Shown piece by piece: positions 267 to 28,896 of a DNA stretch of 52,261 bases; the stretch's first letter is position 1, and each line of letters opens with the position of its first letter. Source of the stretch: Bacteroidales bacterium (GTDB lineage Bacteria > Bacteroidota > Bacteroidia > Bacteroidales > Salinivirgaceae). The stretch lies in assembly GCA_012519055.1 (NCBI GenBank), contig JAAYQU010000039.1, positions 1 through 52,261 of the forward strand. The letters are read 5' to 3'. The notes beneath the pieces were generated by a model. That model did no database searches, was not told the DNA's origin, and saw nothing but the letters and a program-made list of their open reading frames with translations. Made by a program: the position numbers and the translations under genes.

Positions 267-1658
267 CTATTTCATAAACGCAACTCTTCTTTCAGCTTCC
301 ACATCTTCAATGCTTTTAGCCAACGGCTTACCGAGTATGCGATTTCCTGTTTCTGTAATTAACAGATCCTCTTCGCTACGGATACCGCCAAAGTCACGAT
401 ATTTATCGACTTTGTCGAAATTGATAAAATCGGTATTGATTTTATTCGCTCTCCAATGGTCAATCAGTTCAGGTATAAAATAGATTCCGGGTTCGATGGT
501 GATTACAAAACCGGGTTCAAGTGGTCTTCCTAATCGAAGAGATTTTAAGCCGAATTGCGTACTTTTGGGCACATTGTTATAACCTACAATCACTTCTCCC
601 AGATTCTCCATATCGTGTACATCCAATCCCATCAGGTGACCTGTTCCGCAAGGGAAGAATAGTGCGTGTGCTCCGTTTGCAACGGCATCTTGCGTGTTGC
701 CTTTCGTTAAGCCGAGAGTTTTAAGCCCGTCGAAAATAGTTTCGCAAACATGCAGATGCACATCTTTGAAGTTGACGTTGGGCTTTGCCATTTTAATAGC
801 GTTGTTGTGAGCTTCCAATGTTATTTGGTAAATTTCCTTCTGGCGTTCGGTAAATTTCTCAGATACGGGAAATGTGCTACTCATATCTCCGGCATATCCT
901 AAAGGTGTTTCGTAACCAGCATCTAACAAAAAGAGTTGACCCTCTTTTATGGTGTTACCATGATAGTGATTATGAAGGAATTGCCCGTTGATAGTGGCAA
1001 TAATTGGGAAAGATAGATTTCCGCCCGCAGCAAGTGCAGTTTCGTGAACTACGGCAGCTACTTGTGCTTCCGTCATGCCGGGACGAGCAAAATTCATGGC
1101 TCTCTTGTGCATCTCTGACGTTACGGTAACCGCCTTTTCAATTTCTATAATCTCCTCTTCCGATTTGATATTACGCTGATTAGCAATTGCTTCAATCAAC
1201 TTTTTGCTTGCTTTTGCAGAGATCTCTTCTATAGAATATCCCAAAAGGTGATTGAGTTTCAAAATATGCTCTGGGCGATAGGGTGGCAGATAGTGGATCT
1301 TCTTCTTATCAGTTTTCTTTATTTTTTCCGTTAAACGTGATAAACTATCGGTATTCTTAACGCCAACCCTATTGGCTAACTCTTGTATGCTTGGTTGGGA
1401 ACCTGTCCAAATAATCAGATCTATGGTAGCTTCATCGCCAAAAATATACTCTCTGTTTTCGTCTATATCGATTAATGCTGCAAGATTGGGCTTGCTTATT
1501 CCGAAATAGTATAGAAAACTGCTGTCCTGACGATAAAAGTAGGTATTGTCTTCATAATTGATTCCACACTCGTCGTTACCTAAAAAAAGTAGAATTCCTG
1601 ATTGAAATTGTTTTTTCAATTTCTCTCTTCTCGATATGTAAGTTTCTTTTGAGAACAT
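267..1658 (-). CDS. pepP: Xaa-Pro aminopeptidase (M24B, PepP-like)
   Basis: This metallopeptidase removes the N-terminal residue from peptides that have proline in second position. It has an N-terminal creatinase/prolidase-like domain (about 1-170) and a C-terminal pita-bread catalytic domain (about 175-440). The five metal ligands can be seen: Asp246 (LLDAGYE), Asp258 (YAGDMS), His341 (GTGHLMG), Glu389 (ITIEPG) and Glu429 (GIRSEEDLL). The length of 463 residues is normal for the family. There is no signal peptide, so it should act in the cytoplasm. It is the last gene of the run that begins with the HypD-like enzyme, 12 bases after the dipeptidyl peptidase gene, which points to joint use of proline- and hydroxyproline-containing peptides. 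Confidence 0.93.
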   Translation of the reverse strand: MFSKETYISRREKLKKQFQSGILLFLGNDECGINYEDNTYFYRQDSSFLYYFGISKPNLAALIDIDENREYIFGDEATIDLIIWTGSQPSIQELANRVGVKNTDSLSRLTEKIKKTDKKKIHYLPPYRPEHILKLNHLLGYSIEEISAKASKKLIEAIANQRNIKSEEEIIEIEKAVTVTSEMHKRAMNFARPGMTEAQVAAVVHETALAAGGNLSFPIIATINGQFLHNHYHGNTIKEGQLFLLDAGYETPLGYAGDMSSTFPVSEKFTERQKEIYQITLEAHNNAIKMAKPNVNFKDVHLHVCETIFDGLKTLGLTKGNTQDAVANGAHALFFPCGTGHLMGLDVHDMENLGEVIVGYNNVPKSTQFGLKSLRLGRPLEPGFVITIEPGIYFIPELIDHWRANKINTDFINFDKVDKYRDFGGIRSEEDLLITETGNRILGKPLAKSIEDVEAERRVAFMK

Positions 1659-1670
1659 AAGCTTTATATT

Positions 1671-3908
1671 TTATTGATTATTATTGTTGTCCCATTGTGG
1701 AGGCTCGATTTTGAGAATGTGCTTAACAAAAAAATCGCGACGCTTTCTCTCTCCGTATTTTCCGCCCATAGTGTGTCTTTCTCCCGGAAGCATCACAAAC
1801 TCGAAATCCTTATCATGTTTGACGAGCTCGTTAACCACTTGCAATGTGCTTGACGGGTCAACGTTGTTGTCCAATTCACCCAAAATAAGCATCAGTTTTC
1901 CTTGCAGAAGGTGAGCATTCTCCATATTGGAAGATTCCGAGTAATGCTCGCCGATAGGGTATCCCATCCACTGTTCGTTCCACCAAATTTTATCCATTCG
2001 GTTATCGTGACATGCACACGATGAAACACCTACTTTGTAAAATTCGGGATAAAACAGAAGTGCTCCCATAGTGCTTTGTCCGCCTGCTGACATGCCGTAA
2101 ATACCCATATTGTCGATATTCATCTCTGGATATTTCGCTGCAGCAGCCTTTATCCACGCAATTCGGTCGGGGAAGCCTGCATCTTTTAGGTTTTTCCAAC
2201 AGACATCGTGAAAGGCTTTAGAGCGGTTTGCTGTTCCCATTCCGTCTATCATCACAAAGATAAATCCCAACTCGGCAATGGCAGAAGTATATCGATGCTC
2301 AATAGCGAACCGCTTTGGTACGTGAGAATCGTGCGGTCCGGCATAGATATATTCGATAACTGGATATTTTTTCGAAGAGTCGAAATTTGAAGGACGAACA
2401 ATCATGCCCCAAATATCGGTTTTTCCGTCACGCCCTTTCGCAGAGAAAACTTCGGGTTGTTGCCATCCAACAGCCTTAACGGCAGAAATATCGGGTTGTA
2501 AATCGGGTTTGTATATGACTTTTCCTCCCTCTTCAACAGAGCGTACAACAAGGGTTGGCGGCAAATCTACCCGAGAATAGGAATCAAACATATAGGCGTA
2601 ATCGTGCGAGAAAGTTACGCTATGATGTGCGTTTTCGGGTGTAAGAGCCACTATTTTGCCGTTATCAATATTAAGAGAATAATATTTTTCGAGATAGGGA
2701 TCTTCATCTTTATCCATTCCGCATCCTATAAACAAGATTTGTCTCTTTTTTTCATCCACCTTCACCACCTCTTTAACGACCCATTCACCTTTAGTCAGCT
2801 GCTTTTTAACTTTTCCTGAAAGGACATTGTACAGATAAATATGTCGCCAACCGTCACGTTCTGAGATCCAAAGCATTTCGTTGGAATCTTCTAGCCAATG
2901 TTGATAAAGTGAATAGTAATAGATAAAGGTGTTACACTCCTCATTAACAACGGTACGCAGCTCTCCCGACAGATTTCCGGCATAAATTATATATTGTTGA
3001 TGCCCTCGTTTGTTAAAATCGAAAGTGAAGAAATCGCTCTCTTTATTCCACCTGATATTACCTAAATAGTATTGCTGTTCAATGTTGGGAATATTGAAAA
3101 GAACAATTTCGCCTGTTTCCACCATAAAAAGTGTAGGACGTCTGACGGGCAAAGCATCACCGGGTTTCGGGTATTCATACTCTTCGGTTACAGGCTGCAA
3201 TTGTGTAGTGGGCGATGATGAGATTAACAGCAACTTCCTGAATTCTACTGGACTGTATTTGCTGCATACAATTTTACGTGAATCGGGCGACCAATAGATG
3301 TTTGAGGAATAATATTCGTAAGGAGAGCCATCGTTGCTAAGCTTTTTTCTCTCACCTGTTTCAATATCTTTTACCCATAGATTTCCTTCGGAAATATAGG
3401 CTTCTTTTTTACCGTCTGGAGAGGGTACATTTACCTTTTCGTTTTCTTTGTTTATAAGTCCCCAGTAAGGTCTGGAATAATCGTTTTGCTCCTGACATTT
3501 AGTTATTTTGTAATCGGACAGAGTTATAAAGTGGTCTACATTGTCAATGGTAAAAAAGAGCGAATCCTTTTCCGGGCGTATTCGGCGTATAGGAAGATTG
3601 TTGGGGTCAACTTCTCGATTAAGAAACTCCGAAAGTGAAACGGACATGCGTTCCCGGTCGAATGCTTTTTTCTGAGTTGCTGTTATGGGGTCTATAATAT
3701 AACACTCACGTCCATCGGGTGTTTGTGTCTCATAGGCAAACAGATATGCTCTTTTGCCTGCCCGTACATTCTCAGCACCATAATAATATTTTGAAGTAAA
3801 CACTTCGGCATAGTTGTCAGCCAAACGGTACAGACTGTCAATCCCTTGCGCCGATAGAATAAAGGGAGAAAGCAAGAATGCTATTACAAAATAGTGTCTA
3901 TGTTTCAT
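1671..3908 (-). CDS. dpp4: Dipeptidyl peptidase IV, S9B family, exported
   Basis: This exported serine peptidase releases X-Pro (and often X-Ala) dipeptides from peptide N-termini. The ATG at 3908 is preferred to an upstream GTG at 3938 because it begins directly with a signal peptide (MKHRHYFVIAFLLSPFILSAQ). The 745 residues give an N-terminal eight-bladed propeller (about 30-480) and a C-terminal alpha/beta-hydrolase domain. Numbered from this ATG, the catalytic triad is Ser607 (GMSAGG), Asp680 (GELDNNV) and His712 (GERHTMGG). It lies 77 bases after the activase gene and 12 bases before pepP on the same strand. In Bacteroidota such enzymes act in the periplasm or at the surface and feed short peptides to importers. 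Confidence 0.93.
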   Translation of the reverse strand: MKHRHYFVIAFLLSPFILSAQGIDSLYRLADNYAEVFTSKYYYGAENVRAGKRAYLFAYETQTPDGRECYIIDPITATQKKAFDRERMSVSLSEFLNREVDPNNLPIRRIRPEKDSLFFTIDNVDHFITLSDYKITKCQEQNDYSRPYWGLINKENEKVNVPSPDGKKEAYISEGNLWVKDIETGERKKLSNDGSPYEYYSSNIYWSPDSRKIVCSKYSPVEFRKLLLISSSPTTQLQPVTEEYEYPKPGDALPVRRPTLFMVETGEIVLFNIPNIEQQYYLGNIRWNKESDFFTFDFNKRGHQQYIIYAGNLSGELRTVVNEECNTFIYYYSLYQHWLEDSNEMLWISERDGWRHIYLYNVLSGKVKKQLTKGEWVVKEVVKVDEKKRQILFIGCGMDKDEDPYLEKYYSLNIDNGKIVALTPENAHHSVTFSHDYAYMFDSYSRVDLPPTLVVRSVEEGGKVIYKPDLQPDISAVKAVGWQQPEVFSAKGRDGKTDIWGMIVRPSNFDSSKKYPVIEYIYAGPHDSHVPKRFAIEHRYTSAIAELGFIFVMIDGMGTANRSKAFHDVCWKNLKDAGFPDRIAWIKAAAAKYPEMNIDNMGIYGMSAGGQSTMGALLFYPEFYKVGVSSCACHDNRMDKIWWNEQWMGYPIGEHYSESSNMENAHLLQGKLMLILGELDNNVDPSSTLQVVNELVKHDKDFEFVMLPGERHTMGGKYGERKRRDFFVKHILKIEPPQWDNNNNQ

Positions 3909-3985
3909 AATTGATAAGATTATTTTAGTTAAAAACACCTAATATAAGTGATTTTGTTGGAAATGCTCCCTGTTACGAACAAGTT

Positions 3986-4888
3986 TTAACCGCCGATTAC
4001 TGCATTAAATCCGTTATCGATAAACGTATTTAGAATTTCAAACAATCTCTCTTTACTGGGCTCGGATAAGCCTTTATCATCGTAAACTCTTCCAAGTTTT
4101 TCATATTTATTCGTTGCTATGTTATGATAGGGTAGAAGTCCCACCATATCAGGCTTTCGTTTTAGAGATTTCAGAAAATCAATTGTTGCACCAATGTTTT
4201 CATCCGTAGTGTTTACACCCTCTACCAATGGAATTCGAATATGATAATCTTTGTTGCTTTCGGCAATAAATTGAAGATTTTTAAGAATAGTTACATTGTC
4301 CACTCCAACCCATTTTCGATGTTCCTCTGCATCCATAAGTTTTAAATCGTATAAAAACAGATCGGTGTGCGGTAAAATATCTTCAATTACCGATTTGCTG
4401 GCATATCCTGATGTGTCCACAGCCCTGTGAATGCCTTCTGCTCCGCATCTTAGCAACAGTCTTTTTAGTGCTTGGGGATAAGCCAACGGTTCACCACCAG
4501 AAAAGGTGACTCCACCGTCCGAAGAGTCTATAATGGAGCTCTCTTTCAGAATAATGGATATCACTTCATCTTCCGAATATTTTCGTCCGCTCATCTCCAT
4601 TGCGTTAGTGGGGCATACTGCGGCGCATTTACCACAAACAGTACACTTTGTAAAATCGGTTTGGATGCCGTCATCGGTCAATAAAAGAGCCTTTTCAGGA
4701 CAGATATCCACACATGATGAGCAGCCGATACACTTTTTTTTGTTGTATAGCTTCTCGGTTTTAAACGATTGGCTTTCAGGATTGTGACACCATAGGCACG
4801 ACAGCGGACACCCTTTGAAAAAAACGGTCACACGTATGCCTGGTCCGTCGTTGATAGAGTAACGCTTTATATCGAAAAGAAAAGCCAT
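3986..4888 (-). CDS. hypE: Glycyl radical enzyme activase (radical SAM)
   Basis: This radical-SAM protein should use S-adenosylmethionine and a [4Fe-4S] cluster to make the glycyl radical on the neighbouring HypD-like enzyme. The cluster motif CX3CX2C is at Cys27, Cys31 and Cys34 (GCPLSCLWC). Two ferredoxin-like CX2CX2CX3C motifs follow (Cys53/56/59/63 and Cys82/85/88/92). This insert is present in the activases of dehydratase-type glycyl radical enzymes and absent from the plain pyruvate formate-lyase activase. The glycine-rich SAM motif GGEP is at about 170. The gene starts 24 bases after the stop of the partner enzyme, so the two are surely co-transcribed. The symbol is assigned from the partner, not from the activase sequence itself. 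Confidence 0.93.
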   Translation of the reverse strand: MAFLFDIKRYSINDGPGIRVTVFFKGCPLSCLWCHNPESQSFKTEKLYNKKKCIGCSSCVDICPEKALLLTDDGIQTDFTKCTVCGKCAAVCPTNAMEMSGRKYSEDEVISIILKESSIIDSSDGGVTFSGGEPLAYPQALKRLLLRCGAEGIHRAVDTSGYASKSVIEDILPHTDLFLYDLKLMDAEEHRKWVGVDNVTILKNLQFIAESNKDYHIRIPLVEGVNTTDENIGATIDFLKSLKRKPDMVGLLPYHNIATNKYEKLGRVYDDKGLSEPSKERLFEILNTFIDNGFNAVIGG

Positions 4889-4912
4889 GCTTAATTTGCT
4901 TTTTACCCTCTT

Positions 4913-7369
4913 TTAAAACGATTCGTTTTCGGTGCGCTCAATAACTTCCTGTTTCAGGTTATCGTTCATATCGTTGAAGTAGTCGCTATAACCCGCCATT
5001 CTGACCAATAAATCTTTATATTCTTCGGGATTTTCTCGTGCAGCAATCAAAGTTGCTGTATCCACGATGTTAAACTGCACATGGTGCCCTCCCTGTGAGA
5101 AATAAGAGCGGATAAGTTTTCCCAATTTTGCCACATCTTCGTCTCGTTTTAGCAGACTTGGTAGAAAACGTAAATTGAGCAGTGTCCCTCCAGATTTTAC
5201 TTGGTCTAATTTTGCAAGCGAGCGTATAACTGCCGTTGGACCGTGTGTATCGCAACCGTGCGAAGGCGATGTGCCGTCGGAAATGGCTTTACATGCCAAA
5301 CGTCCGTTGGGCGATGCACCCATTACGTTGCCAAAATAGTTATGGCAAGTAGTAGATAGCATATTTAGATGATATTTACCACCCTCTTTTCCGTTGGGAC
5401 GACCATCTATCAATTTGAACAGATCTTCGTAAACTCTCACGGCAATATCATCGGCGTAATCGTCGTCGTTACCAAAGAAAGGAGTGTTGTTAAGAATTCG
5501 CTGACGCAATACCTCTTCGCCTTCAAAGTTTACGGAAACAGCATGAAGTAGGCTGTCCATATCAATAGATTTATCCTCGAAAACATGCTTTTTCAAAACT
5601 GATAACGAGTCGGTTATCGTTCCTAATCCTGTACATTGGATATAGGTAGTGTTATATCGCGGTCCTCCGTTATAATAATCTCGTCCTTTTTTGATACAGT
5701 CATCGATAATTACCGATAAAAATGTTGCCGGTGCATATTTTGCAAACATGCGGTCGATATAGTTATTTATCCTGATTTTCAAATCGATAATATACTTTAA
5801 CTGTGCGTGGAATGCATCGTAAAGCTCTTCAAACGATTTAAAATTGCGTGGGTTGCCTGTTTCAATTCCCACCTTTTTGCCTGTTACGGGATTGATTCCG
5901 TTAAACAGTGTAACTTCAAGAATTTTAGGCACATTCAGGTAGCCAGTAAGCAAGAAAGCCTCTTTTCCGAAAGCTCCCACTTCAATACATCCGCTGCAAC
6001 CACCTTCACGAGCGTCTCGGATTGATTTTCCTGAGCGCAACATCTGTTGGATATAGATATCGGGATTGAATACCGAAGGGTAACCGTGTCCCTGGCGAAT
6101 AACTTTAATCGCAGCATGCAGAAATTTGTCCGGTGTGCGGGATGAAATATGCACCGAGTTACCGGGTTGAAGAATATGCAACTCTTCAATAATTTCGAGC
6201 ATCAGATACGAAACCACGTTCACACCATCTGAGCCGTCGGGTCTTACACCACCGATATTGATATTGCAGAAGTCGTTGTAAGTGCCGCTTTCGTTTGCGG
6301 TGATACCCACTTTTGGCGGAGCAGGTTGATTATTTACCTTTATCCAGAAGCAGGAGAGAAGCTCTTTTGCATCATCGCGTGTGAGCGTTCCGTTGGCTAA
6401 ATCGTTTTTATAAAATGGTTCAAGATGTTGGTCGAAATGTCCGGGGTTGAAGGAATCCCAACCGTTCAATTCAATAATAACTCCCAGATGCATAAACCAG
6501 TACATTTGAATTGCCTCCCAAAAATTACGAGGTTTATTTGCCGGAACATGACGACAAACTTGTGCTATCTGTAACAATTCGCTTATCCGTTTCGGGTCCT
6601 TTTCGTTTTTTGCCATCTCTTCTGCTTTTTCGGCGTATCGTTCTGCTAATCTGATAATAGCGTAGCATGATACCGCCATAGCCTTCAACTGCTCCTCCTT
6701 ATCGGTGGCTTCGGGGTCGTTAAAAAAATCAAGTTTAGCTATCTCTTCATTTATTTCCCTTTTAAAATCGAGCATACCCTTTTTATAAACTTTCCCATCT
6801 AAACAGGTGTGTCCGGGGGCACGCTGTTCCATAAACTCCGTGAACAATCCGGCTTCATAGGCTGCGCTCCACTCTTCTGGTACATAATTGAAAATGCGCT
6901 CGCGTTGGGTACGACCTTGCCAGTATGGAATAACTTCGGTTCGATAAGTTTCAATATCCTCTTTGCTGATAGTGTAGCGCTGCTGCTCGCGTGTGTTGAG
7001 TACATTCAAATCCTCAACAGTATGGCAGGTAAGTTCGGGAAAAGTGGAAACAGCTTTTGGTTTTTCGCCTCGTTCGCCAACTATTAGCTCATTTTTGCCG
7101 ATATAAATAGCTTTTTTCTCGCAAATTTCCATAAAGTTCAGGGCGCGCATCATAGGGATGGAATATTTTCCATTGTTTTCCTTATAAAATCGGGTCGTTA
7201 TCAGTGCACGCTCAATGGACAGAGTTGCAGGGGTTGTAACACTCTCTTCCCTCAAATCCTGTATGCGCTGGTTCATACCCGGTTTTTTATGATTTTCTTT
7301 GTAGAAATTGCCTTCCTGATTCGATTTTCTTTCAGGTATTCTATTTTTGGATTTTATTTTTTCGAACAT
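4913..7369 (-). CDS. hypD: Glycyl radical trans-4-hydroxy-L-proline dehydratase
   Basis: This enzyme should dehydrate trans-4-hydroxy-L-proline to 1-pyrroline-5-carboxylate by radical chemistry under anoxic conditions. The radical site Gly793 lies in MAGYSDYF and the thiyl cysteine Cys461 in GCSGCIEVG. Active-site residues recalled for Clostridioides difficile HypD (His160, Asp278, Ser334, Phe340, Cys434, Glu436, Tyr450, Thr645, Gly765) match His187, Asp305, Ser361, Phe367, Cys461, Glu463, Tyr477, Thr673 and Gly793 at an offset of 27, then 28. Pyruvate formate-lyase has two adjacent catalytic cysteines, and diol or choline lyases usually read GCVEP here; neither fits. The ORF has about 31 extra basic N-terminal residues, and Met32 (position 7276, MNQRIQDLREES) may be the true start. 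It heads the run hypD, activase, dpp4, pepP. Confidence 0.88.
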   Translation of the reverse strand: MFEKIKSKNRIPERKSNQEGNFYKENHKKPGMNQRIQDLREESVTTPATLSIERALITTRFYKENNGKYSIPMMRALNFMEICEKKAIYIGKNELIVGERGEKPKAVSTFPELTCHTVEDLNVLNTREQQRYTISKEDIETYRTEVIPYWQGRTQRERIFNYVPEEWSAAYEAGLFTEFMEQRAPGHTCLDGKVYKKGMLDFKREINEEIAKLDFFNDPEATDKEEQLKAMAVSCYAIIRLAERYAEKAEEMAKNEKDPKRISELLQIAQVCRHVPANKPRNFWEAIQMYWFMHLGVIIELNGWDSFNPGHFDQHLEPFYKNDLANGTLTRDDAKELLSCFWIKVNNQPAPPKVGITANESGTYNDFCNINIGGVRPDGSDGVNVVSYLMLEIIEELHILQPGNSVHISSRTPDKFLHAAIKVIRQGHGYPSVFNPDIYIQQMLRSGKSIRDAREGGCSGCIEVGAFGKEAFLLTGYLNVPKILEVTLFNGINPVTGKKVGIETGNPRNFKSFEELYDAFHAQLKYIIDLKIRINNYIDRMFAKYAPATFLSVIIDDCIKKGRDYYNGGPRYNTTYIQCTGLGTITDSLSVLKKHVFEDKSIDMDSLLHAVSVNFEGEEVLRQRILNNTPFFGNDDDYADDIAVRVYEDLFKLIDGRPNGKEGGKYHLNMLSTTCHNYFGNVMGASPNGRLACKAISDGTSPSHGCDTHGPTAVIRSLAKLDQVKSGGTLLNLRFLPSLLKRDEDVAKLGKLIRSYFSQGGHHVQFNIVDTATLIAARENPEEYKDLLVRMAGYSDYFNDMNDNLKQEVIERTENESF

Positions 7370-7565
7370 TTCTTTCTCTCTTATTTAAATGTAACGTAAA
7401 GATAGCTAATATTTTTAGAACTGTGATTTTCTTTAAGGGGAACTCAATAGTTATATGTGTGACCTCTATTCTTATTTATAAAAGTCATTGATAAGCCCAT
7501 TCAACTTATCTTATAACAAATTAACTGTATAAAGGTTCAATCTGTAATTTGTGTTACAATCAATA

Positions 7566-8624
7566 TCATTTTAGTATGATTCTATAACATTTGTCAGCAT
7601 AAGTTATGTAGTATTTTAACATTATCTGCCCGTTGGTATTAGTTTCAAAAGTTGATAGGCTTAAGTCTATCCACGGATAATCATCCGTGCATTCTTTAAT
7701 CTCATCATTTACAATTTTCCTGTCCGGTATGTTTACAAGATGATAAAGTGTTTCAACCCGTCCCACGCCAATATCAGCCGGTGCCGACATTATGATTGCC
7801 CATCTGTTATTAGTTGATATATCGATAAGCTGTAAAACCGACTGTGGATCGTGATAAATTACCATACCTTGGTTTTGTTCGTCATCGGCTAAAAGGGTGT
7901 TTTCGGTCTGGTTTATGTAAACTTTTTTTATTGGTATCAACGGAGTTGAACTGTTCAATGTGCACTCTTCTCCGGTTAAAAACAGTTCCGAGATACAGAT
8001 ATCATCATATTTAGTCCCCGGTAATGATTCTACTATATCGATTTTTACAAAAAAACAGGAATCAAGTATCGGTTGCTCGAAATGTGACCGTGCTTGCTGG
8101 TATACTTTCTTGCTGAATTCATTAAGTTCTTTTCGCGAAAAATCTAATTCAATTGTTTGAATACCAAAAGTATCGACTAATGTTACAATTTGTTCGCGCG
8201 GGTATTTTAATCCTACATATACGTCGGCAATTTCACTAACAAATCCTCCATCGGGATGAACAGTTGCATAAACCGATAATTGTATTTTTTTTGGGCGGGC
8301 ATTTTTATAAAACAGCTCTTGGCTCTTTCCGTATCCGGAAAAAATATTAACGTACACCTTGTTGTTGTCATGGGGCATCCTTAAATAGGTGCCGGCAGGG
8401 TTGTTGTTTTTATATGAGCCACATACCCAGCAGGTTTTAATATTACCATCAAATATGTTCGATTCAGGGTAGGGCTCAACGGGCATATCTTCATAATCGT
8501 AATCGCAGACATTTAAAAAAAAATCCTCCCATTCACTTTCCGATTGTGCCCATCCGTTACTCGTTGTATAGATGGCAATTATAATAAGACAAGCAACTTT
8601 ATAATAATGATTTAATTTGATCAT
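7566..8624 (-). CDS. Secreted protein with NADase-type glycan-binding-like domain
   Basis: I recognise only part of this protein. The ATG at 8624 is chosen because it starts a good signal peptide ending in TTSNGWAQ; the longer ORF from 8714 adds 30 residues that overlap the preceding gene. After the signal peptide, the pattern NIFDGNIKTCWVCG, then NIFSGYGKSQELFYKNARP, KKIQLSV and DICISELFL resembles the discoidin-like NADase-type glycan-binding domain of Bacteroidota secreted proteins. The last 130 residues have no motif I can name. It overlaps the end of the upstream lipoprotein gene by 26 bases, so the two are probably expressed together. A substrate-binding or surface role is inferred. Confidence 0.65.
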   Translation of the reverse strand: MIKLNHYYKVACLIIIAIYTTSNGWAQSESEWEDFFLNVCDYDYEDMPVEPYPESNIFDGNIKTCWVCGSYKNNNPAGTYLRMPHDNNKVYVNIFSGYGKSQELFYKNARPKKIQLSVYATVHPDGGFVSEIADVYVGLKYPREQIVTLVDTFGIQTIELDFSRKELNEFSKKVYQQARSHFEQPILDSCFFVKIDIVESLPGTKYDDICISELFLTGEECTLNSSTPLIPIKKVYINQTENTLLADDEQNQGMVIYHDPQSVLQLIDISTNNRWAIIMSAPADIGVGRVETLYHLVNIPDRKIVNDEIKECTDDYPWIDLSLSTFETNTNGQIMLKYYITYADKCYRIILK

Positions 8625-9471
8625 AGGTCTTCTTTGATTTTTGTTCGTATATGCTCTTCCAAGGTTCTTCGAGACTATTTTTATAGTCATCCATTTCTTT
8701 GAGTATCGACTCAATCTTAGATTTTCTTTTTTTTGCTATTATTTGTTCGACTACTGCCCGTCGGGTTTTGGATGAGCTATTTATCAGGTAGATTGTCTCC
8801 TCAATATATTCCCTGTCAGATTTAGGATATATTTCATCCAGAATCAAGTCCCAATCTGCCAAAGGAATTTCTGCAAGTTGCCTATTGATCGAAGTTAGAT
8901 CGCATTTTTCTGATTTGATGAGAAGATTATTGAATGTCGTGGTATCAATAGCTGTATCGGTTTTGGTATATACATTAAAAGCACGGGGCTGCCCATATTT
9001 TTCTTTTAACGATGTTATAGCTTGTAGGCTTTTTGGGGTTCTGGCATTTTCAATTATCCAGTCCCAGTACGGAACTGGAGATATTAAGTAATAAGCCATG
9101 GTATCGGTTAGTGCTAATGTTACACTCCATTTTGCTCTCCACGGGCCTAACAAGCTTGTTAGGTCACTAAAGGTAATTAGCTTCTCAAGTAATTTGCTTT
9201 CGCAATCAAAAACATAAAGTCCAACATCCTTTAATAAATACTTGGGTTTTCCCCCATCGGGGAAAGCGGCAATACCCTCTGCGCTACGGTAGGCCATTTT
9301 TGAGGCTACAAAAGCTACTTTTGTATGATTATCGTTCCAAGCAGCACCCCAATGGACGTCGTAATCAATTGTCAAATACTCGGAATAGCACGATGTAAGC
9401 AAAAAAACCATACTTACTGTGAGTGTCTTAACAGTAAATATGGCTTTAAAATAGAAATAGAACTTTTTCAT
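8599..9471 (-). CDS. Lipoprotein of unknown function
   Basis: I do not recognise the family. The ATG at 9471 (MKKFYFYFKAIF) is preferred over the in-frame ATG at 9504 because it places a lipobox (FLLTSC) at the end of the hydrophobic segment near residue 28; the cysteine would be lipidated. The first 110 residues after it are rich in short beta-like stretches (WNDNHTKVAFVA, GLYVFDCESKLL), suggestive of a propeller or a WD40-like sensor fragment. The last 90 residues are charged and probably helical (KKRKSKIESILKEMDDYK). The gene overlaps the start of the next secreted protein gene by 26 bases, so translation may be coupled. Confidence 0.6.
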   Translation of the reverse strand: MKKFYFYFKAIFTVKTLTVSMVFLLTSCYSEYLTIDYDVHWGAAWNDNHTKVAFVASKMAYRSAEGIAAFPDGGKPKYLLKDVGLYVFDCESKLLEKLITFSDLTSLLGPWRAKWSVTLALTDTMAYYLISPVPYWDWIIENARTPKSLQAITSLKEKYGQPRAFNVYTKTDTAIDTTTFNNLLIKSEKCDLTSINRQLAEIPLADWDLILDEIYPKSDREYIEETIYLINSSSKTRRAVVEQIIAKKRKSKIESILKEMDDYKNSLEEPWKSIYEQKSKKTYDQIKSLL

Positions 9472-9551
9472 GGTGTTTTTATCGATATTTAGGATATTAA
9501 TCAATAACTAAGTCGAAAGCACCATTGTCAAGATTTTTTTAATTATATGGT

Positions 9552-10340
9552 CTATTCTGTTTTTTTCCAAATAATTTCTTTTTTCCAATTATCTTTTCCT
9601 TGATAATAATCTTTAAATAATTGGATAGTCTCTTCTTTTGTTAGCACTTTCTCAGCGGCGAATTGTTGTCCATTTTCTTTATATTCAGCAACAAAATTAC
9701 CATCAGAAAAGGCTGCTTGAATAAAATCATCCTTGTCATTCAAAATAATAAAGAAATTATCATCGTTAAGGCTGTTGATACATTCCACCACTTTCTCTTC
9801 ACTTACTTTATCAAAAGTATCACCATTTGCCAATTCGACTGAGAAATTTGACACTTTTTTTACTTCCTTTTTCGCCCCGTCATTTGATTCTTTTCCCGCT
9901 CCATCAACAGGTATGGTTTTGCTTAATTGTTCAAACTCTGCTTTTTTAAAAGTATCCAAACCACTACCTACAAAAACCCAGTTTTTTCCATTATCCAAGC
10001 TTGATAAAAGGACAGCATGAATTTGGTCTGGTCCAGCATCAGCGTAATATGCTGTAGCAAAAACTGCTTTTCTGCCCATAATATTACCAACCTCATAGCG
10101 CACCTCTTTTATAGTGCCATCCCATCCAGCAACAGCTTTTGCATCTTCCTTAACGCCTTTATCTTCGAAATAACCTTCCGAGATTGCATATTTTAGAATT
10201 CCGGAGGCGTTCTTTTTGAGCAATTCAACATCTTTGTTTTTGTACGCATTTAACACCTCTTTAGCTACATTTTCTACCTGAGAAAAGGCAGTAATAGTAG
10301 AGACAAAAATTAAAGTGGAAATAATTACTAATTTTTTCAT
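9552..10340 (-). CDS. Secreted two-domain protein of unknown function
   Basis: This is a 262-residue exported protein with a clear signal peptide (MKKLVIISTLIFVSTITAFSQ). It seems to have two globular halves joined by a charged, Gly/Lys-rich linker (about 135-155). The first half begins with a helix containing LNAYKNKD, as in small NTF2-like or DUF4878-type domains. The second (about 160-262) has the pattern ECINSLNDDNFFIILND and a basic, Trp-containing C-terminus (KDNWKKEIIWKK). No catalytic motif is visible. It has its own promoter and a 22-base palindrome in its leader. The two genes downstream lie on the same strand after an 80-base gap. Confidence 0.6.
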   Translation of the reverse strand: MKKLVIISTLIFVSTITAFSQVENVAKEVLNAYKNKDVELLKKNASGILKYAISEGYFEDKGVKEDAKAVAGWDGTIKEVRYEVGNIMGRKAVFATAYYADAGPDQIHAVLLSSLDNGKNWVFVGSGLDTFKKAEFEQLSKTIPVDGAGKESNDGAKKEVKKVSNFSVELANGDTFDKVSEEKVVECINSLNDDNFFIILNDKDDFIQAAFSDGNFVAEYKENGQQFAAEKVLTKEETIQLFKDYYQGKDNWKKEIIWKKTE

Positions 10341-27420: not shown

Positions 27421-28896
27421 TTAGTAAGCTCTTGCAAACAATACTCTCTCTTTTGATGGTTTGCCACTATAAATACATTTTCCATTCTCCTGCGGATTAT
27501 CGAAAGGGATACAGCGTATAGTTGCTTTCACCTCCTCTTTTATTGCAGCTTCCGTCTCGGCTGTGCCGTCCCAGTGCGCCAATACAAAACCGCCTTTGTT
27601 TTCTAATATATCTTTGAACTCGTCCCACGAATCTGTTTTATAAGTGTTGGCTTCTCTGAAATCAAGGGCTTTTTTATGCAAATTAGCTTGAATATCTTCT
27701 AATAATTTAGGGATATGTTTTTCAATATTGTCAATAGGAATAGTCTCTTTCGTAAGAGTGTCGCGGCGAGCAACCTCAATAGTATTGTTTTCAATATCAC
27801 GCGAACCAATCGCCAATCTAACGGGAACGCCTTTCATCTCATATTCGGCAAACTTCCAGCCCGGTTTTTGTGTATCGCGGTCATCGACTTTAACCGTAAT
27901 ATTGAGTTTTCTTAATTTTTCAGCAGTTGCATGAGCATGTTTACACGTTGTTTCATATTGCTCTTGATTTCTGTAGATAGGAACAATTACAACATGAGTA
28001 GGAGCAAGCTTCGGCGGTAAAACTAACCCTTTATCGTCTGAGTGAGTCATAATTAAAGCTCCCATTAAACGGGTAGAAACACCCCACGATGTAGCCCAAA
28101 CGTATTCGAGTTTACCATCTTTGTCAGCAAACTTCACGTCAAAAGCTTTTGCAAAGTTTTGTCCTAAAAAGTGAGATGTGCCTGCTTGCAGTGCTTTGCC
28201 ATCTTGCATTAATGCCTCGATACATAAAGTGTCAACAGCACCTGCAAAGCGTTCGCTTTCGGTTTTATGTCCCTGAATAACAGGCATTGCCATCCAATCA
28301 TTTGCGAAATTGGCGTAAACATTAATCATTTTCATTGTCTCTTCAATCGCCTCTTCGCTTGTAGCGTGTGCAGTATGACCCTCTTGCCACAAAAATTCTG
28401 CAGTCCTTAAAAAGAGACGTGTACGCATCTCCCAGCGCACAACATTTGCCCACTGATTGCACAGAATAGGAAGGTCGCGATATGATTGAATCCAATTTCT
28501 ATATGTGTTCCAAATTATGGTTTCCGATGTTGGTCGAATAATTAGCTCCTCTTCGAGTTTAGCTTCGGGGTCAACAATAACCCCATTTCCTTTCGGATCA
28601 TTCATTAATCTATAATGCGTTACAACCGCACACTCTTTCGCAAATCCCTCAACGTGGGCAGCCTCCTTACTCATGAATGATTTAGGAATAAACAGTGGAA
28701 AGTAGGCGTTTACGTGTCCCGTATCTTTAAACATTTTGTCTAATTGTGCCTGGATTTTTTCCCATATCGCATATCCATAAGGTTTTATTACCATGCAACC
28801 GCGCACTGCCGAATTTTCAGCCAATTCTGCCTTTAAAACCAAATCATTGTACCATTGTGAGTAGTTTTCTGACCGAGGTGTAATCTCTTTTGACAT
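27421..28896 (-). CDS. proS: Prolyl-tRNA synthetase, eukaryote/archaeal type
   Basis: This class II synthetase charges tRNA-Pro. At 491 residues and without the bacterial editing insert, it is the shorter eukaryote/archaeal-type ProRS common in Bacteroidota. Motif 2 is seen as [17 protein letters not shown] and VVRWEMRTR, and QEGHTAHAT is the characteristic stretch after it. The motif 3 region [14 protein letters not shown] is near 270, and an HGTP_anticodon domain (about 290-400) precedes a C-terminal zinc-like domain ending in RAY. The gene is on its own; the nearby sigma gene converges on it. Confidence 0.95.

Follow-up and report, generated by a model that had tools for sequence, protein, structure and literature searches.

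Four adjacent genes at one end of a 52,261-nucleotide contig from a Bacteroidales bacterium of the family Salinivirgaceae (GenBank assembly GCA_012519055.1, contig JAAYQU010000039.1; the whole stretch is referred to below as the window) are likely to form an operon for the anaerobic catabolism of hydroxyproline-rich peptides. All four lie on the minus strand and in order of transcription they encode the glycyl radical dehydratase HypD (4913-7369, 818 amino acids (aa)), a radical SAM activase (3986-4888, 300 aa), an S9-family protein combining an alpha/beta-hydrolase with a beta-propeller (1671-3908, 745 aa from the ATG) and an M24 metallopeptidase with an AMP_N domain (267-1658, 463 aa). The open reading frame (ORF) coordinates agree with a preliminary description of this DNA, which had reported four codirectional genes separated by 24, 77 and 12 bases. 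An alternative GTG start of the S9 gene is located 30 bases upstream at 3938 (1671-3938, 755 aa) and would shorten the second gap from 77 to 47 bases. No minus-strand terminator-like site was predicted inside the four genes, and we infer that they are co-transcribed.

The HypD protein of the window scored 1188.7 bits against the equivalog model NF043068 (cut-off 1100), which was also passed by all nine of the other HypD proteins scanned (1179-1281 bits). The equivalents of H160, D278, S334, D339, F340, C434, E436, Y450, T645 and G765 of Clostridioides difficile HypD were identical at 10/10 positions, a comparison that took in the CXE motif and the radical-bearing Gly765, so that the earlier label of a HypD-like enzyme is confirmed. 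F340 and Y450 are included here as what we take to be active-site positions. The remaining eight are those discussed in the available text of an account of the C. difficile enzyme (PMC7077986). The adjacent gene encodes a glycyl-radical activase (TIGR02494, 342.6 bits against a cut-off of 174) with a CxxxCxxC motif at residues 27-34 and two further cysteine motifs at 53 and 82. It passed the general activase model but not that of the HypD-activase equivalog NF043069, for which the protein scored 372 bits against a cut-off of 425. The activase of locus L084, the only other linked activase scanned, likewise fell below this cut-off (294.9 bits). An apparent HypD-activase fusion ORF in locus L072 (2-3373) was rejected as an artefact of a run of Ns.

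The S9 protein contains the domains PF00930 (DPPIV_N, 162.8 bits) and PF00326 (Peptidase_S9, 144 bits), its best match in the Protein Data Bank (PDB) was 2d5l (163.6 bits) and the catalytic Ser, Asp and His align. It had been named dipeptidyl peptidase IV (DPP IV), and this identity was rejected because the whole segment bearing the double-Glu motif is missing from the window protein relative to those of loci L090 and L091. In the bacterial enzyme PmDAP IV, as described in the accessible part of PMC5807507, a short helix within blade 4 carries the double-Glu motif, which binds the N-terminus of the substrate and is indispensable for exopeptidase activity. The window protein resembles that enzyme in its propeller and hydrolase architecture and in its aligned catalytic triad, whereas the double-Glu segment is absent from it. 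Among nine aligned hypD-linked S9 proteins the motif was kept only in L090 and L091; five lacked the segment (the window, L089, L183, L122 and L211), while L084 and L111 had a segment at this site without the Glu pair. The neighbourhood of the catalytic serine reads GMSAGG in the window protein and GWSFGG in L090 and L091. The S9 activity may still be proline-directed despite the missing segment. An AlphaFold2 model built from five alignment rows had a mean pLDDT of 41 and was not used.

The M24 protein contains PF05195 (AMP_N, 81 bits) and PF00557 (165 bits), and its metal-ligand motifs could be aligned using the five residues that we take to be the M24 metal ligands. It had been called an Xaa-Pro aminopeptidase, a name that is not confirmed as against prolidase: phmmer comparisons with aminopeptidase P and prolidase from the PDB gave 169.5 and 166.3 bits, and the two cannot be separated on these scores. 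The domains and metal-ligand motifs are common to the aminopeptidase P and prolidase of Escherichia coli; the window protein differs from them in passing neither of the NCBIfam cut-offs (PRK10879 and PRK13607) and in grouping with hypD-linked proteins of other Bacteroidales. A second M24 copy, 50% identical, is encoded elsewhere in the genome (G000:C35). Judged by eye, the N-terminus of the S9 protein resembles a signal peptide and that of the M24 protein does not, which fits the earlier proposal of an exported and a cytoplasmic peptidase, apart from the naming of the exported one as DPP IV.

These assignments suggest a route in which the exported S9 hydrolase would trim peptides containing proline and hydroxyproline (Hyp) in the periplasm, and a transporter whose gene lies outside the cluster would take up the short products. 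In the cytoplasm, the M24 enzyme would then split Xaa-Pro and Xaa-Hyp bonds to free the imino acid, HypD, once activated by its radical SAM partner, would dehydrate hydroxyproline to pyrroline-5-carboxylate (P5C), and a P5C dehydrogenase encoded elsewhere in the genome would oxidise P5C to glutamate. Collagen or the plant cell wall is a plausible source of the peptides. In this scheme the sequence itself shows which genes are present, their order, the HypD active site, which of the pathway genes looked for were found or not, and the recurrent linkage described below; localisation, substrates and the direction of flow are inferred.

The final step was examined in the genome from which the window derives (2.71 Mb in 53 contigs, estimated to be 100% complete), which encodes one HypD. 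ProC was found neither by PF14748 nor by TIGR00112, models that were positive in 12/14 and 14/14 control genomes, respectively, and we therefore rejected ProC as the next step after HypD in this organism. The preliminary description had contrasted this cluster with the usual association of HypD with proC as if the two genes were merely unlinked here, and that contrast did not hold since no proC was found anywhere in the genome. ProA was also not found with a model positive in 14/14 control genomes, nor was proline dehydrogenase (8/14), nor proline racemase/Hyp epimerase, for which the model was positive in only 3/14. A P5C dehydrogenase, in contrast, is present (G000:C4, 786 bits against a cut-off of 613.6). 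HypD is thus the sole source and P5C dehydrogenase the sole sink of P5C that we identified, in searches that did not include ornithine aminotransferase. With P5C dehydrogenase present and ProC, ProA and proline dehydrogenase not found, hydroxyproline would most likely end as glutamate rather than proline. The earlier reading, which ended at P5C, lacked this dehydrogenase. Given the negative results for ProA, ProC and proline dehydrogenase, the same peptides probably serve the cell as its supply of proline, with hydroxyproline being channelled into glutamate metabolism.

The same gene content could reflect a proline auxotroph scavenging proline, in which HypD serves mainly to remove hydroxyproline as a possible toxic analogue or peptidase blocker. 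We consider this unlikely. It would agree with the failure to find ProA and ProC, and, with proline dehydrogenase not found either, proline itself would not be expected to be catabolised through that enzyme. On the other hand, P5C dehydrogenase is present while proline dehydrogenase and ProA were not found, and a P5C dehydrogenase for which HypD is the only identified source of substrate (with the qualification on ornithine aminotransferase given above) suggests a catabolic end. A biosynthetic role, in which an ornithine aminotransferase, a ProC-like imine reductase or an ornithine cyclodeaminase would turn P5C into ornithine or proline, appears more improbable again. These three enzyme families were not searched for in this genome, which leaves room for such a route, but both ProC models were negative here while detecting the enzyme in control genomes including a Bacteroides, and the P5C dehydrogenase scored above its cut-off.

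The linkage of hypD to peptidase genes was surveyed in 393 Bacteroidales genomes, of which 131 had a HypD match at E 1e-200 or better, and all 131 loci were analysed. Twenty-four loci encoded a HypD at least 65% identical to that of the window and 107 fell below this level; the eight of the latter that were scanned all passed the HypD cut-off (8/8). The flanks, taken as 6 kb around hypD, amounted to 1.30 Mb and were compared to 0.66 Mb of control sequence, drawn from the same contigs as 40 regions of 16.4 kb each. Counts from this census are rough, because contig ends truncate many of the loci and ORF calling was mechanical. An unsupervised clustering of the genes within 6 kb grouped the activase at 124 loci, S37 peptidases at 22, EamA-type transporters at 15, M24 at 12, C69 at 11 and S9 at nine, followed by proline racemase, an ABC ATPase and a LysO-like exporter at seven loci each, where the ABC ATPase was named by eye and the other names were derived from Pfam. 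Profile searches gave M24 at 13 loci, S9 at nine, S37 at 22, C69 at 11 and proline racemase/Hyp epimerase at seven, compared to one M24 gene, two C69 genes and none of S9, S37 or proline racemase/Hyp epimerase in the control regions. One of the 13 M24 loci, L122, has an M24 of a different kind, placed on a long branch. Enrichment near hypD was strong for S37 and clear for M24 and S9. The S37 peptidase PS-10 cuts after proline according to a table in the consulted part of a review (PMC9147577). At E 1e-60, none of the ORFs surrounding hypD at the 131 loci matched P5C dehydrogenase; one match was located in control region L252.

At least one of the M24, S9, S37 and C69 families was present within 6 kb on either strand at 39/131 loci. 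In 27/131 a peptidase gene belonged to the same uninterrupted codirectional run as hypD (gaps of up to 300 bases), with two or more kinds of peptidase in nine of those runs, and 26 of the 27 belong to the 107 loci with lower HypD identity. The genes hypD, S9 and M24 occur in this order on one strand in the window and in L084 (activase-hypD-S9-M24-S37-C69), and L090 and L091 have a one-strand run of hypD-S9-LysO-M24 followed by S37 and C69, with a racemase gene as well in L090. Other arrangements included M24-activase-hypD-S9 on one strand in L089, activase-hypD-M24-racemase-C69 in L083 and a long M24 of the Creatinase/Prolidase type adjoining hypD in L126. The linkage of hypD to peptidases from families with known or expected action at proline is therefore not a one-off and involves several peptidase families and both HypD classes, mostly the class other than that of the window.

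Two transporter-like families were also observed in these neighbourhoods. The EamA-type transporter was the third commonest neighbour of hypD (for example L086 5124-6020 and L135 6047-6967), was encoded in none of the 40 control regions and may carry hydroxyproline or a product. The LysO-like exporter gene was located inside the hypD-peptidase runs of L090 (4753-5642, split in two ORFs) and L091 (6117-6809).

A separate scan covered the best 80 hypD loci, with S9 and M24 matches counted above 60 bits and some stretches being short. The four-gene order was complete in the window and L005 alone and partial in L002 and L003. In these three near relatives, L002, L003 and L005, the activase gene is followed by that of an S9 protein of 85-88% identity; the M24 gene follows S9 in L005 and is not beside it in L003, while the L002 contig stops inside S9. 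M24 genes are located upstream of hypD in L007-L010, with a contig end cutting the gene in L008, and in L062, and L046 has a fragment. L007 additionally carries an S9 gene of 54% identity about 7.7 kb past the activase. In loci of the Proteiniphilum type a gene for an S41/Tricorn-C1 peptidase lies directly before M24 and hypD (L007 7311-8339, L009 7304-8332). The exact four-gene order is local. The preliminary description had named a neighbourhood search finding the arrangement only once as a refuting outcome, and for the precise order, confined to the window and its close relatives, that test would have raised a flag; the pairing of hypD with peptidase genes recurs across Bacteroidales.

A FastTree phylogeny of 135 HypD rows (INDEPENDENCE), comprising 128 rows from the census with a length of 700 aa or more and seven loci from the first scan, required a minimum of 13 changes for M24 linkage (12 with L122 set as absent), eight for S9, 12 for S37, seven for C69 and five for the racemase, counts in which gain and loss are not distinguishable. 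The HypD clades of the window and of Proteiniphilum were sisters (support 72), so the M24 linkage in both may represent a single old event plus rearrangement. In a tree of the M24 proteins, the window-type hypD-linked proteins formed one group of 18 rows together with a copy from genome G005, with the second copy of the window genome and a control-region copy falling outside; this tree took in few unlinked copies and does not demonstrate that the clade is linked exclusively to hypD. Across genomes, a window-type M24 (at least 545 bits, the weakest linked protein scoring 546.1) was accompanied by hypD in 45/56 cases versus 86/337 of the other genomes (Fisher 5.8e-15, uncorrected for phylogeny), and a looser M24 set gave 55/80 versus 76/313, again uncorrected. 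The two genes were within about 6 kb of each other in 12 of the 55 genomes having both, a hand-picked count, compared to 0.2 expected under random placement in 4-Mb genomes.

The copy in G005 lies in L093 (G005:C54:4000-14329), where a window-type M24 and a C69 gene occur together at 5883-9785, adjacent to a 156-aa radical SAM gene; the genome belongs to the same family and gave no hypD match. The radical SAM gene was rejected as an activase remnant as it has the size and domains of what we take to be a small anaerobic ribonucleotide reductase activase, and we do not propose that hypD was lost there by truncation.

Several observations weigh against a dedicated hydroxyproline peptide operon. 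S9 or M24 matches were absent in 71/80 of the closest hypD loci, some of which were short stretches, and in the HypD class of the window a peptidase run occurred in 1/24 census loci, namely the window itself. A hypD match was absent in 11/56 genomes with a window-type M24, G005 among them, and the C69 enrichment was weak (P 0.04). The peptidase families of the census were chosen once they had already been noticed, the loci share ancestry and the control set is small. The four-gene cluster contains no transporter gene, the M24 sequence does not allow assignment as an aminopeptidase P acting on longer peptides or a prolidase acting on dipeptides, and with the double-Glu motif absent the S9 protein need not be specific for proline. 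In a rival explanation, only HypD and its activase would function as a unit, no pathway would be dedicated to hydroxyproline, and the S9 and M24 proteins would be general peptide scavengers that happen to be encoded downstream, perhaps sharing a promoter responsive to nutrient limitation. Of the 80 nearest loci, most have hypD and the activase without S9 or M24 and with varied neighbours (20 neighbours were scanned), the window's class rarely has a peptidase run, and in G005 the M24 and C69 genes are found together without hypD. We nevertheless hold this explanation to be improbable, since different proline-type peptidase families were found beside hypD repeatedly and well above the control regions, and proline racemase/Hyp epimerase is found there too.

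A catabolic operon in the window could be one instance of a broader pattern, which we put forward tentatively as somewhat less likely than not to hold in full. Bacteroidales may possess a recurrently assembled, anaerobic hydroxyproline peptide locus that parallels their polysaccharide loci, with HypD as the fixed core and M24, S9, S37, C69 and Hyp epimerase as interchangeable parts recruited many times. The linked M24 clade and the S9 proteins without the double-Glu motif would be tuned to hydroxyproline peptides, and the window organism would catabolise hydroxyproline, but not proline, to glutamate.

The window begins at base 1 of the contig and only 266 bases of DNA are visible downstream of the M24 gene. 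Upstream of hypD, the intergenic stretch 7370-7565 (minus strand, 196 bases) contained no sigma-70-like site wholly within it on the minus strand, by a consensus other than that of Bacteroidota. The next gene (7566-8714, minus strand) was left out of the cluster because of this distance and its NADase_transloc F5/8-type domain. It is the first of three further minus-strand genes in the region 7566-10340, the other two of which had no Pfam match at E 0.01. A proline-tRNA ligase gene (TIGR00408) is located at 27421-28896 on the same contig, about 20 kb from the cluster.

The recurrent peptidase linkage outlines a specific supply route that leads from peptides of collagen or plant cell walls to P5C and names candidate enzymes for it, and the product predicted for organisms without ProC is glutamate rather than proline. 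This bears on gut competition for collagen-derived amino acids, in which Bacteroidaceae with hypD have been suggested to compete with C. difficile; the available text of the same study describes growth gains of Bacteroides thetaiotaomicron and Bacteroides fragilis with hydroxyproline and, for an M24 prolidase of C. difficile, a transcript level in vivo that was higher in the wild type than in the tcdR strain (PMC7815924). Among the matches listed in our literature searches, no paper described linkage of hypD to proline peptidases in Bacteroidota, which does not establish its absence from print, and the priority of this finding is uncertain.

In the C. difficile pathway of HypD, HypD-activase and ProC, as given in the accessible parts of PMC7077986 and PMC9044972, proC lies beside hypD and P5C is reduced to proline; an adjacent proC is reported for a subset, largely Clostridia (PMC9044972). 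The window encodes the same dehydratase by equivalog score and active site, with the activase adjacent, but no proC was found, a P5C dehydrogenase is present in the genome and peptidase genes adjoin hypD. The nearest precedent for peptidases combined with hydroxyproline catabolism is the collagen-utilisation cluster of Colwellia from a marine bone microbiome, which likewise brings together peptidases, a hydroxyproline dipeptidase and hydroxyproline catabolism (PMC7883544). That cluster belongs to the Gammaproteobacteria, includes an M9 collagenase and proceeds by another route, through an epimerase, D-Hyp dehydrogenase and ketoglutarate, with no glycyl radical dehydratase mentioned in the portion of the paper available to us.

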